22,647 nt of DNA, from IMG/VR virus record IMGVR_UViG_3300028711_000002, positions 1-22,647 of that record, one strand, 5' to 3'. The position numbers and the translations under genes are program-made. Positions 8,934 to 22,647 of the stretch are shown here, piece by piece. Each line of letters starts with the position of its first letter. The first letter of the stretch is position 1. The notes beneath the pieces are model-generated. The model was given only the letters and a program-made list of their open reading frames with translations. It was not told the DNA's origin and searched no databases. This stretch comes from a virus.

Positions 8934-10283
8934 TTATCCCCCTACCCGGACGAGGACGCCGCGCGGGATCCGGATGACTCGATCAAGGCGGGTCCGCCGC
9001 CCGAGTTCGTAGACGATCTCGTCCATCATCTCCCCCGTCGACGACGAGAGAATCTGCAGCGTGAAGCGGTCGATCCCTTCGGGCCGCAGGTCTGCGGCAT
9101 TGGTAACCTCGACCGGCAGCGGCCTCGAGCGCCCGAATAGGCCGCCCAGCAGCCCACCGACGAAGCCGATGACGCTCGACTCGATCGGCGTCACGCCGGG
9201 CAGGGCCTGCGCGATCTGCGTGACCGACTGGAGGGCACTTTGCACGACCGCCTGCATTGACTCCGCCGCTGCGGCGCCCATTGCCGCGAAGGCCTGCGGC
9301 AGCTGCGACCGCAAGACGCTAACCGCCTTGACGTTCGCGGCCGTCTCCCGCTCTCGCGCCGCCGTGGTCTGCGCAATCGCGCGCGGCATCCCGGCTCGCA
9401 CGAGCTCCTCGATCCGGAGCGCCGCCGTTACGTCTTGCTCGGAGGCCCACAGCATCCGGTTCGCGATCGCGGCATCCTCCGAGGCCTCCCGCGCATTCTT
9501 CTGCGCGTCAGTCGAGAGATTGATAGCGGCCGCCCGCCGCTCCTCGGCCGCGACCTGGATCGCGACATCGCGGGTCCGTGGATCGGCCTGCAATTCGTTC
9601 TGACGCATGCGCTGGCGCACGTCGAGGTCGGAGGCTAACTCCCCGCCTGGCATAAGCGCGCCACTCATCTTCTGACGGTCGATCGCCTGGCGCATTCCGA
9701 GGGCCGCGTCCTGCTTCGCCCGGGTCGCCGCATCGGCAAAGTCCTGCATCGCCTTGTTGATGATGTTCTGCTGCTCGGCGATCTCCCGGTTGATCTGCTC
9801 GAGCTCCTCGGGGCGCCAGCCACCGCCGATCCGCGGTCCCGACAAGAGAGGTGCGCGCTTGAACCGCTGGGCAAGCGTTGGCTGGTCGCGTTCCTGAATC
9901 AGGTCGGCGATCTTGAGTTGGGCAGCATGAGCGACGCCAGAGGGCCCGAGCTTCGCGATCTCGGCTATCATGTCCTTCTGCGCCTGCGCGTTGTCCCGAG
10001 CGTCCTTCGTCAGGGCGCGGATCGCGAAGCCGACCAGCGCGAGGCCGGCCACGGCCCCAACCATGAGCGCAGATCCGCCGCCGATCTGCAGCAGCCCACT
10101 CGCCACGCGCCCGAGCGGCCCCGGGATGCCCACCGCCTGGAAGGCAAGCATCCGGATCCCCTGCTCGACTCCCCGCACGCCTTGCCCGGCGTCCGGCCCG
10201 GAGCGCTTCAGTTGCCGGAGCTGGTCGTTCGCCTTCTCAAGTCCAGCCGAGAGGCCGGAGTCTGAAAAGAAGGCTCTTACCAA
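8934..10283 (-). CDS. Tape measure protein (5' end uncertain)
   Basis: At least 449 residues, Ala/Gln/Arg-rich and largely helical, with a hydrophobic segment at about 63-90 (GGGSALMVGAVAGLALVGFA) and a second near 365-380 (SSVIGFVGGLLGGLFG). These are hallmarks of tape-measure proteins, which set tail length and form a channel during DNA entry; a 450-residue protein would suit a short tail. Only a TTG at 10281-10283 is available as a standard start. The reading frame stays open upstream to 10376, and the residues just before the TTG (ATVAFDFLVRAFFSDSGLSA) look like a normal tape-measure N terminus. No ATG or GTG exists in that extension. The neighbouring HNH gene seems to have replaced the original start. 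Confidence 0.8.
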   Translation of the reverse strand: MVRAFFSDSGLSAGLEKANDQLRQLKRSGPDAGQGVRGVEQGIRMLAFQAVGIPGPLGRVASGLLQIGGGSALMVGAVAGLALVGFAIRALTKDARDNAQAQKDMIAEIAKLGPSGVAHAAQLKIADLIQERDQPTLAQRFKRAPLLSGPRIGGGWRPEELEQINREIAEQQNIINKAMQDFADAATRAKQDAALGMRQAIDRQKMSGALMPGGELASDLDVRQRMRQNELQADPRTRDVAIQVAAEERRAAAINLSTDAQKNAREASEDAAIANRMLWASEQDVTAALRIEELVRAGMPRAIAQTTAARERETAANVKAVSVLRSQLPQAFAAMGAAAAESMQAVVQSALQSVTQIAQALPGVTPIESSVIGFVGGLLGGLFGRSRPLPVEVTNAADLRPEGIDRFTLQILSSSTGEMMDEIVYELGRRTRLDRVIRIPRGVLVRVGG

Positions 10284-10294
10284 AAAGTCGAACG

Positions 10295-10978
10295 CTACGG
10301 TCGCACCCTCGCCACCAGATGTGGCATGGTTGTGTGCTTGTGACGATTGCAGGAAGCGCAGGCTGGCCGAAAATTGCTAGGCCAGTTGCTACCGCCGCGC
10401 GCTAGGGGAATAACATGGTCTAGGTGTTCCCAGGGAGCACCACAGATCCAGCAGCGCCAGCCGTAGAACGCGATCCGCGCATCCAATTGGGCGGCGGATG
10501 CCGTCCCTTGGGCTCTGATTTTCCTTGCCCTACGGCGATTTTCCTTGAAGCGGCAAAGCTCCCTGTGACGCTCACGATGTGATGCCTTCCATGCGTTCGC
10601 GCGCGCAATGATCTGCTTGCGGTGCGCTTCCAGATAACGCTGGAGCGCGGCGTCACGATCACCGCCGTAACCGTGCATTCGGCTGCGATGAATGCTAGCC
10701 GCCTTCAGTGTCGCGAATCGGTGCCCGCAATCCGAGCAGCCATACAACCCCGTTCCACGTTCCTGCTCGCGCTGCCACCGGCGGTAGTGCATCGGACAGA
10801 GACCGCGCGCGCCCCCGTAGATCGACTTCCTGCAGTGCTCGACCGAGCACGGGCGAGTCCCACGCCCCCAATGCAGGCGGGCGTGAACATCCAAGGCATC
10901 GGCCTTCCAGGCGGCTTGGTAGTGCCGTCGGCAGAGTCCGCGTGCGATCGCCACCGCCCCGCAGATACAGGTCGTCAG
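10295..10978 (-). CDS. HNH endonuclease with N-terminal zinc motifs (free-standing homing type)
   Basis: About 227 residues if begun at a CTG (10976-10978) overlapping the chaperone stop as CTGA, or 219 from a GTG at 10954. The CTG start adds TTCICGAVAIARGLCRRHY, completing a Cys-x-Cys...Cys-x2-His knuckle that the GTG start cuts in two. A second copy follows (CSVEHC...ARGLCPMHYRRW). At about residues 78-100 lies a C2H2 finger, CSDCGHRFATLKAASIHRSR then MH. The C terminus is the nuclease: CWICG, then HLDHVIPLARGGSNWPSNFR, then CASCNRHK. Such genes are mobile and often sit between structural genes. The AGGGGGGT just before CTG could serve as ribosome-binding site. Its 3' end overlaps the tape-measure frame, which seems disturbed by its arrival. 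Confidence 0.85.
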   Translation of the reverse strand: MTTCICGAVAIARGLCRRHYQAAWKADALDVHARLHWGRGTRPCSVEHCRKSIYGGARGLCPMHYRRWQREQERGTGLYGCSDCGHRFATLKAASIHRSRMHGYGGDRDAALQRYLEAHRKQIIARANAWKASHRERHRELCRFKENRRRARKIRAQGTASAAQLDARIAFYGWRCWICGAPWEHLDHVIPLARGGSNWPSNFRPACASCNRHKHTTMPHLVARVRP

Positions 10979-11268
10979 GCTACCCCCCTCGGGAAGCTTG
11001 GTCGGCCGATGCCGGCGAGCCGCTCGAGCGCTGCCTTGTGCATCGACTTCATGGCCAGCTCAGCGCCGTCGTTCGCGGGCTGGGCGAGTTGGAAGGCGTC
11101 CGCTCGGAAGACCCGCTCGCGCGCCTCGTAGCGCCCAGTGCGATCGACGAGGCTCGTGAACTCGTGCCAGGTCATGGCCTCAGGCGGATAGTGCTTGTAG
11201 CGGTCCAGATAATCCCCGACCATGTCGACGAGGCTCGGGGGCTGCTCCGCCGGGACCTCGCCGCTCAC
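10975..11268 (-). CDS. Tail assembly chaperone, second ORF (GT-like)
   Basis: A 97-residue protein starting at a GTG that overlaps the previous TGA as GTGA. It contains PPSLVDMVGDYLDRYKHYPP, MTWHEFTSLVDRTGRYEARE and a helical tail ending in RPSFPRGVA. Between tail tube and tape measure siphophages carry two overlapping chaperone ORFs, the second read through a -1 frameshift. This ORF is in the -1 frame relative to its partner, and the frame stays open upstream for at least 140 bases, so it could be made as a fusion or by reinitiation. The chaperones coat the tape measure during tail assembly. Confidence 0.7.
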   Translation of the reverse strand: MSGEVPAEQPPSLVDMVGDYLDRYKHYPPEAMTWHEFTSLVDRTGRYEARERVFRADAFQLAQPANDGAELAMKSMHKAALERLAGIGRPSFPRGVA

Positions 11269-11660
11269 GCGCCCGTCAGCACGGCCGATGCGGGTGCCGC
11301 GGGGGCCACGGTAGACCCGGGCGTCATAGTCCCCAGACGGGCCGCGGTACGCCCTGGCCGCAGCGCGTAGATGAAACGGCTGATCAGGTCCGTCAGCTCG
11401 AGCATCGTGATCTTCGGCTCGCCCGACGGCAGCTTCCCGAGTTTCTCGATCAGCGCCGCCTCGGTGATGCCGGTCGCCTCCTCGAACTTCGCCCAGAGCT
11501 TGTTGAAGTCCTCCTGCTCGAGCGTCTCGGAGAACTTGTAGAGCAGCGCCTTGAGCGTGAGGCCGGTCCGGAAGCCAATCAGGTGTCCCGTGATCGGCGC
11601 GCCGTTCGGGAGTTCGAGTTCGAGCTCAATATAGGAGTCGCGTGCGTCGTTGTCTGGCAT
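11265..11660 (-). CDS. Tail assembly chaperone, first ORF (G-like)
   Basis: A 131-residue acidic protein beginning MPDNDARDSYIELELELPNG, with a helical middle (LTLKALLYKFSETLEQEDFN, EATGITEAALIEKLGKLPSG, ELTDLISRFIYAL) and an Ala/Pro/Thr-rich end. Size, acidity and position after the tail tube fit the upstream tail assembly chaperone. It is separated from the tail tube by a structured 132-base spacer. Near its end a GGCCCCC run (11301-11307) offers a possible but non-canonical slip site for the -1 shift into the next ORF; a standard slippery heptamer is not seen. Confidence 0.7.
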   Translation of the reverse strand: MPDNDARDSYIELELELPNGAPITGHLIGFRTGLTLKALLYKFSETLEQEDFNKLWAKFEEATGITEAALIEKLGKLPSGEPKITMLELTDLISRFIYALRPGRTAARLGTMTPGSTVAPAAPASAVLTGA

Positions 11661-21367: not shown

Positions 21368-21991
21368 CTACTCATAGCGAAACTCATGCAGGCAGCGGTG
21401 GCTCGTCATCAGCCGCTCGTAAATGGGCAGGTTGTTCACGATCGTCCCGGTGAGCGTAGGCTCGCGGTGCGTGTACATGTCGGCTGCTGCCTGCTTGATG
21501 GCCATGCGAATAAGCTCCGGGACTTCCTCACCTGTCACCTTACCAGCCACATAGGTGATGATGACCGCATTCGGTACAGTTCTCGTCGCTGGCCACACTT
21601 GGTTAGGAGCGAGATGAATGCGTGCTGGATCGGATGCGGTATCCACCACATAGACCGATCCACTGAGCACAATCGTATTCCCATCCGCGTCCACATACTG
21701 CAGTTGCGTCACACTGGTGAGGTAGGGTCCATCCTTAGGTGCTGGTCTGGGCAGCAGGATCTCCCAGCAGGGGAACGCATCTAGGCGTAGTACCCATGTT
21801 TGCGCCGTGAGTGCACGAGAGAGCTCTTTCTCAACTTCTTCCTCCGCAGCGAGAGCGATGTCCTCGATGCTGTCATTCTCCTCGTCCCATGTCACCCGCA
21901 GGTAGTGCTTCAGCTCATCAATGCCGACGACACGAACGGCGGGGGCAACCGTGCGCACGAGATTCCAGGGGATCGCCGCATAGTCCCTCAT
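21368..21991 (-). CDS. Head-tail connector/adaptor (gp6-like, phiE125 gp8 type)
   Basis: A 207-residue protein; the ATG at 21991 overlaps the HNH stop (ATGA) and has GGAGGAG six bases upstream, which decides against an ATG 11 codons earlier. Family pattern: 'VVGIDELKHYLRVTWDEEND' (the 'i.leelK.hLRvd...dD' motif) at about 22-41, 'LAAEEEVEKELSRALTAQTWVLRLDAFP' (the 'i.aA...ie..tgr.l..qtw...ld.fp'), then 'LTSVTQLQYVDADGN', 'VWPATRTVPNAVIITYVAGK' and a helical end 'ELIRMAIKQAAADMYTHREP'. It extends the portal ring for tail attachment. Normally the gene follows the capsid; here it lies ahead of terS. Confidence 0.85.
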   Translation of the reverse strand: MRDYAAIPWNLVRTVAPAVRVVGIDELKHYLRVTWDEENDSIEDIALAAEEEVEKELSRALTAQTWVLRLDAFPCWEILLPRPAPKDGPYLTSVTQLQYVDADGNTIVLSGSVYVVDTASDPARIHLAPNQVWPATRTVPNAVIITYVAGKVTGEEVPELIRMAIKQAAADMYTHREPTLTGTIVNNLPIYERLMTSHRCLHEFRYE

Positions 21992-22437
21992 TGCTCTCCT
22001 CCGAACGCTTTCAGGTAGCGCCATCCCTGCGGTGCCGGCGCGCCTGTCTTGGCTCCCTCTTCACGCAGGCGGATACCGAAGAACAGATCGCGCCGCTCCA
22101 TCGCCGTCTTGAACGAGTGACACGCACCGCGGGGGCCGATCGGTCCGGGCGCGCCGCAGAGTCCTTGTCCATTCTCATAGCTCCAGTCATCAGCACTAGG
22201 CTTCCGGGGGATCACATGATCCGCATGGGTGCTCGGCACCGCGCCACATCCACGGCAAATGGGATCTCGCGAGAGAATGTCCTTACGCCATTCCCGCTGT
22301 TGAGCACCAAGACCTCGCGCAGTGCTCGATCCTCGCTGACGCTCGCGCGCACGTTGATGCTCGGGACAAGGCCCGCCCGTCGAAGGATTCGGGCAGTACG
22401 GACTCGCCGAACAGGTCTTCAGTGGCGCGCACGCCAT
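21988..22437 (-). CDS. HNH endonuclease associated with packaging
   Basis: A 149-residue protein starting MACAPLKTCSASPYCPNPST at an ATG that shares one base with the previous TGA (TGATG). A Cys-rich start (CSASPYCPN, 'GGPCPEHQ') is followed by the nuclease: 'CRGCGA', then 'STHADHVIPRKPSADDWSYE' with the HNH first His, 'NGQGLC', and 'CHSFKTAMERRDL'. The two Cys pairs probably hold a structural zinc. HNH enzymes next to terminase genes are needed for cos-end cutting in HK97-like phages; that role is plausible here. A start 45 codons upstream would overlap the neighbour and is rejected. Confidence 0.88.
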   Translation of the reverse strand: MACAPLKTCSASPYCPNPSTGGPCPEHQRARERQRGSSTARGLGAQQREWRKDILSRDPICRGCGAVPSTHADHVIPRKPSADDWSYENGQGLCGAPGPIGPRGACHSFKTAMERRDLFFGIRLREEGAKTGAPAPQGWRYLKAFGGEQ

Positions 22438-22647
22438 CAGCTGCTCGCCTTCGGCACAACGGTCACATAGATGTAGCCGGACGTTGGGAACACCGCCGGC
22501 CCGCCCGAGAGCCCCGTGACGGTGAACTGCCCGTAGTAGACGCCTGGCGTATCGCTGTCCACACCCGCCCATAGGTATTTCACCATGCCAGCAACTGCGC
22601 TCACGATCACCACCGGTGCCGCATTCACCTTCACGGCGCCCGTGCGC
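22437..22647 (-). CDS. Ig-like phage structural protein, C-terminal part (runs off right edge)
   Basis: The last 69 residues of a gene that begins outside the window. The frame is open to the edge, and a GTG at 22634 is internal because the preceding residues (RTGAV) continue the same strand. The pattern 'GMVKYLWAGVDSDTPGVYYG', 'QFTVTGLSGGPAVFPTSGYI' and 'YVTVVP' matches the beta-sandwich with '.Y.w...Dt.tpG.Y...f......g....fP..gy..v.v' seen in small proteins of phage head-tail regions and in BppU-like N-terminal domains. The exact role is uncertain. Confidence 0.6.
   Translation of the reverse strand, partial: RTGAVKVNAAPVVIVSAVAGMVKYLWAGVDSDTPGVYYGQFTVTGLSGGPAVFPTSGYIYVTVVPKASS

Follow-up and report, generated by a model that had tools for sequence, protein, structure and literature searches.

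A putative homing-type HNH gene at the first codons of a tape-measure gene in an uncultured tailed phage

Gene order and the HNH open reading frame

The window, meaning the whole stretch of DNA analysed, is a 22,647-base IMG/VR virus record whose late genes lie on the minus strand. At the junction under study (11268-8934, minus strand), a GT-type tail assembly chaperone gene is followed by an HNH gene and then by the tape-measure protein (TMP) gene, with these features:

11265 to 11660, minus strand: G-type tail assembly chaperone gene, 131 aa, ATG start, directly after the tail-tube gene
10975 to 11268, minus strand: GT-type tail assembly chaperone gene, 97 aa; its GTG start overlaps the G stop, and its own stop is TGA 10977-10975
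10983 to 10990, minus strand: GAGGGGGG, a strong Shine-Dalgarno-like site, that of the old TMP start and now before the HNH gene
10973 to 10978, minus strand: CTG ACG, probable HNH start (CTG 10978 or ACG 10975), the ACG standing at the position of the relatives' TMP ATG
10295 to 10978, minus strand: HNH endonuclease ORF of 227 codons when read from CTG; it has zinc knuckles, an intact HNH motif and the stop TAG 10297-10295
10970 to 10974, minus strand: left CGACC copy, not above chance
10299 to 10303, minus strand: right CGACC copy, not above chance
10284 to 10304, minus strand: orphaned TMP 5' end reading A T V A F D F, with no standard start codon, aligning with the N termini of L016, L047 and L046
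10281 to 10283, minus strand: TTG, the sole standard in-frame TMP start left, with no Shine-Dalgarno site (+0.4 kcal/mol), 11 nt past the HNH stop
8934 to 10283, minus strand: TMP gene (449 aa when read from TTG), positioned between GT and the next tail gene

The G-type product is presumed to be a tail assembly chaperone from its gene position, and homologues occupy the same place in the contigs L016/L017 (30%) and L046 (51%). Homologues of the GT-type chaperone lie immediately upstream of TMP in L016/L017, L046 and L047/L048, and the N-terminal ~100-145 aa of the TMP share about 47-51% identity with the TMPs of L016, L046 and L047. A second HNH-bearing contig shows 2 differences from the window in 20.8 kb, none of them at the junction, and has the identical insertion. 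As these two near-identical contigs form the single HNH-bearing lineage known, the polarity of the insertion rests on parsimony. Elsewhere in the window, a plus-strand ORF (2295-2984) facing the late operon has a signal-peptide-like start (at an internal ATG) and a HEFGHLLQ zinc-metalloprotease motif.

Regarding the HNH ORF, family matches above cut-off were obtained with Pfam HNH (6e-9) and HNH_5 (6e-9), and it matches PHROG 1271 at 3e-16. The catalytic HNH motif is present together with Cys zinc ligands, and C176, C179, D187-H188, N202, C207, C210 and N211 are conserved in the alignment with L034/L035; from its family, the gene is putatively of the homing type. Its GC3 is 0.69 vs 0.78-0.89 in most neighbours, the exceptions being terS? 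(0.70) and p6818 (0.74). The first zinc knuckle (C4, C6, C16 and H19, counted from CTG) aligns with the HNH proteins of L034 and L035, and the stretch from the second Cys to HYQAAWKA aligns with L040-L043. Since the C-x-C half of this knuckle (C4, C6) lies upstream of GTG 10954, in the same frame, the HNH start is probably CTG 10978 or ACG 10975 rather than that GTG. The HNH relative in L034 (4695-5480) has about five Cys/His zinc knuckles before its HNH domain, and the window protein has fewer; the compressed form of the first knuckle in the window (C-x-C) was possibly produced by trimming at insertion.

HNH genes are common beside phage packaging genes, and a second, unrelated-looking HNH protein (HADHVIPRK...) is encoded upstream of the terminase genes (21988-22572, minus strand).

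HNH-free relatives and the empty site

The sequence-only reading of this locus had proposed that the HNH gene landed in the 5' end of the TMP gene, and had expected HNH-free relatives to join a chaperone stop directly to a TMP start with a homologous N terminus. Relatives were found step by step, by scanning with alignments of the capsid, the tube and the tape measure, and the HNH-free chaperone-TMP order was seen in five IMG/VR contigs from three lineages (L016/L017, L047/L048 and L046), all with the upstream chaperone and all with the insertion site empty. The junction is GGCTGATGGCACAA (GGC TGATG GCA) in L016/L017, where the TMP begins with MAQGWDVVVRAFF; it is GACTGATGGCCTTC (GAC TGATG GCC) in L047/L048, with the N terminus MAFFDVVARFLF, and GCATAGCGCATGGCC (GCA TAG CGC ATG GCC) in L046, with MAWDVIIRTFL. 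Thus, the TMP ATG stands at the chaperone stop in two lineages (TGATG, TGATG) and 3 nt past it in the third (TAGCGCATG), which bears out the expected junction, and the empty junction and homologous N termini both support the proposed insertion.

The N termini of the relatives match (T)TVAFDFLVRAFF of the window, including an aromatic-Asp motif upstream of TTG. D6 and R10 are invariant in the N-terminal alignment, and D6 falls upstream of the window's TTG. After AD/TD, the relatives' TMPs continue with GGLSAGLAKAN or SGLSAGLAKAN, and the window continues with SDSGLSAGLEKAN. The distance from the start to RAFF is nine residues in L016 and also nine in the joined window when counted from ACG (TTVAFDFLV).

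These observations bear on the reading in which the HNH gene has long been sitting between the genes, the TMP always started at TTG and the similarity upstream of it arose by chance. In its favour, TTG 10283 is the sole standard in-frame start, with the conserved RAFF core right after it. Upstream of TTG the TMP frame does lack ATG and GTG, as the sequence-only reading had stated; it is open back to 10376, with stop codons just upstream of that position, i.e., within the HNH segment. However, the three HNH-free lineages start by ATG at or next to the chaperone stop, and the residues that they share with the window upstream of TTG are similar beyond chance, as the aromatic-Asp match occurs in 0.23% of random in-frame hexapeptides (P about 0.002). 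Neither a TMP start at the TTG position nor an unrelated N terminus was found in any of the three lineages, and the always-TTG reading is regarded as improbable.

Removal of 671 nt had been said to give CTG ACG ACC GTA GCG TTC GAC, an in-frame TMP start overlapping the chaperone TGA. The TMP frame and the overlap with TGA (10977-10975) hold, but the old start corresponds to ACG and not to CTG: comparison of TGATG with TGACG places the old TMP start position at ACG 10975-10973, one codon after CTG 10978. This ACG may have mutated later from ATG or may have arrived with the insertion. No HNH-free relative above 60% identity was found, which leaves both the site of insertion and the start codon of the ancestor fixed only within a few bases.

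The repeat CGACC, also put forward as a sign of insertion, does occur at both HNH ends at the positions claimed; as evidence it carries no weight. By chance, two windows with this base composition have a 5-mer in common in 26% (20 nt) to 54% (30 nt) of cases, real 30-nt window pairs from the same sequence do so in 57%, and a second 5-mer, GTAGC, is common to the same two ends. A 5-bp repeat at chance level was thus rejected as a target-site duplication, and the case for insertion must rest on the relatives. Homing needs no target-site duplication.

Other searches returned little. Single-sequence scans of IMG/VR with TMP, GT and tube gave the near-identical contig only, and when TMP, tube and the next tail gene were compared by tblastn with 50,697 phages, nothing matched, no close relative being present in that collection. 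The tube-alignment scan of genome contigs had no match; the MCP scan of the same kind of contigs gave 4 distant loci, the closest of which, L049, had no TMP or chaperone match, and a search through 400 genomes of the Chloroflexi MAG's phylum gave one distant tube match without TMP. The MCP-based route led to relatives with other tail modules (L008, L013, L014). L008 (11143-12237) shows 74% capsid and 47% tail-tube identity, with unrelated genes right after the tube at the place expected for chaperones, which marks a module boundary at the tube gene.

Translation of the HNH and tape-measure genes

The HNH ORF shares its frame with the old TMP start and follows GAGGGGGG, whose duplex with the anti-Shine-Dalgarno is calculated at -11.4 to -11.8 kcal/mol; Shine-Dalgarno-like sites at the same place in the relatives reach -5.6 to -10.0. 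At the other end, the stop TAG 10297-10295 falls within ACC GTA GCG, which is TMP sequence read in another frame, and the HNH alignment with L034 ends just before it. As its start region and stop both lie in target sequence, the invading ORF appears to use the start region and the stop of its target. Consequently, since the HNH gene took the TMP ribosome site and start, the TMP must start in some weaker way. Close to the HNH 3' end, a GCGAGGGT stretch (10312-10305) lies at Shine-Dalgarno distance from the orphaned TMP codons, with no in-frame start codon. RNA structure is nothing unusual at either junction (z -1.3 and +1.5).

The best explanation, to which a probability of about 85% is given, is that a putative homing-type, free-standing HNH gene was inserted at the first codons of TMP, at the chaperone/TMP junction. 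The insertion could have arisen by double-strand-break repair or by illegitimate recombination during the spread of the HNH gene. The HNH ORF would then be translated with the help of the old TMP ribosome site, beginning at the old start position (CTG/ACG, which overlaps the chaperone TGA), where ribosomes finishing the chaperone would reinitiate weakly at CTG or ACG. After HNH translation stops at TAG 10297, some ribosomes may reinitiate 11 nt on at TTG 10283, producing a TMP that would lack the first ~8 residues, the conserved Asp included. Reinitiation at TTG is considered the most likely route of TMP translation, and the 11 nt from the HNH stop is within the reinitiation range of terminating ribosomes; coupling and a window of seven codons have been described for T4 endonuclease genes, mobE among them (PMC2988022). 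One point against the insertion model is the weakness of the starts that it needs, CTG or ACG for HNH and, for TMP, a TTG without Shine-Dalgarno. As tape measures are low-copy virion proteins, a low TMP supply could be enough.

In an unlikely alternative, the contigs come from a prophage that is defective or decaying and whose TMP gene was broken by the insertion, so that TMP is no longer made efficiently. Such decay agrees with the splitting of the start codon and the Shine-Dalgarno site from the TMP frame, but the downstream TMP frame is intact over 449 codons, the window's remaining structural genes are open, and the two HNH-bearing contigs are nearly identical.

Recoding from the old start, through a -1 frameshift close to the HNH stop or an ACC-to-ACC jump, would let both proteins share one start. 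The ORF would then borrow the start and stop of its target, with one non-AUG start serving HNH and, via recoding, TMP. The common frame of the HNH start and the old TMP start and the identical ACC codons flanking the insert fit this proposal; nevertheless, by-eye inspection found no slippery heptamer at the HNH end, the flanking repeat is at chance level, and the jump would span 671 nt vs roughly 50 nt in T4 gene 60, making recoding, and the shared start with it, highly improbable.

Introns and inteins are frequent carriers of HNH genes, and the joined frame is correct, as would be expected if a group I intron or an intein were spliced out to restore TMP. However, the window has no Rfam match, the HNH protein has no intron family match, and the ORF takes up nearly the whole insert, so that a ribozyme would not fit. 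A group I intron was therefore rejected, and an intein is excluded because the insert length of 671 nt cannot be divided by 3 and a stop codon (TAG 10297) closes the HNH frame within it. The HNH gene is thus not embedded in either element, and splicing is scarcely credible.

Meaning and comparison with known systems

Insertion at the TMP start, as favoured here, shows how tightly a selfish endonuclease gene can fit into a phage late operon, depriving an essential structural gene of its ribosome site, its stop-start overlap and its start position. If the phage is viable, it would offer a case, open to testing, in which reinitiation keeps a structural gene alive; if the insertion reading is true, an HNH-free relative with >80% identity would read TGATGACCGTAGCGTTCGAC or similar. 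Caution is also required for start calling beside HNH genes, as automatic annotation would give both genes starts that are wrong or doubtful (GTG 10954, TTG 10283).

The locus is a new case of HNH insertion, in an uncultured tailed phage, of a kind of gene invasion already known. T4-like phages are well known to carry free-standing homing genes of the HNH and GIY-YIG types, both at gene junctions and within genes (PMC2988022), and for actinophages there are descriptions of HNH genes that entered on their own, in a different frame (PMC11855218). T4 MobE is a free-standing HNH homing endonuclease at the nrdA/nrdB junction, and the mobE AUG overlaps the upstream stop (UAAUGA), which suggests translational coupling (PMC2988022). 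Both are free-standing HNH genes at a junction of co-oriented genes; in contrast, the window gene, a putative nuclease, has no standard start at the overlap and took the start site of the downstream gene. An endonuclease gene likewise lies inside the coding region of an important phage gene where mobE interrupts nrdA in Aeh1 and where mobA interrupts gene 60 in T4 (PMC2988022), but these insertions split the gene mid-way into two polypeptides, whereas the window loses only the TMP start. In ShiLan, an out-of-frame HNH insertion with zinc-finger motifs, neither intron nor intein, lies in a phage DNA methylase (PMC11855218). The two cases agree in that an HNH gene alone sits within a phage gene and is read in a different frame; however, the methylase frame is open through the insertion, while the TMP frame of the window is closed inside the HNH segment.
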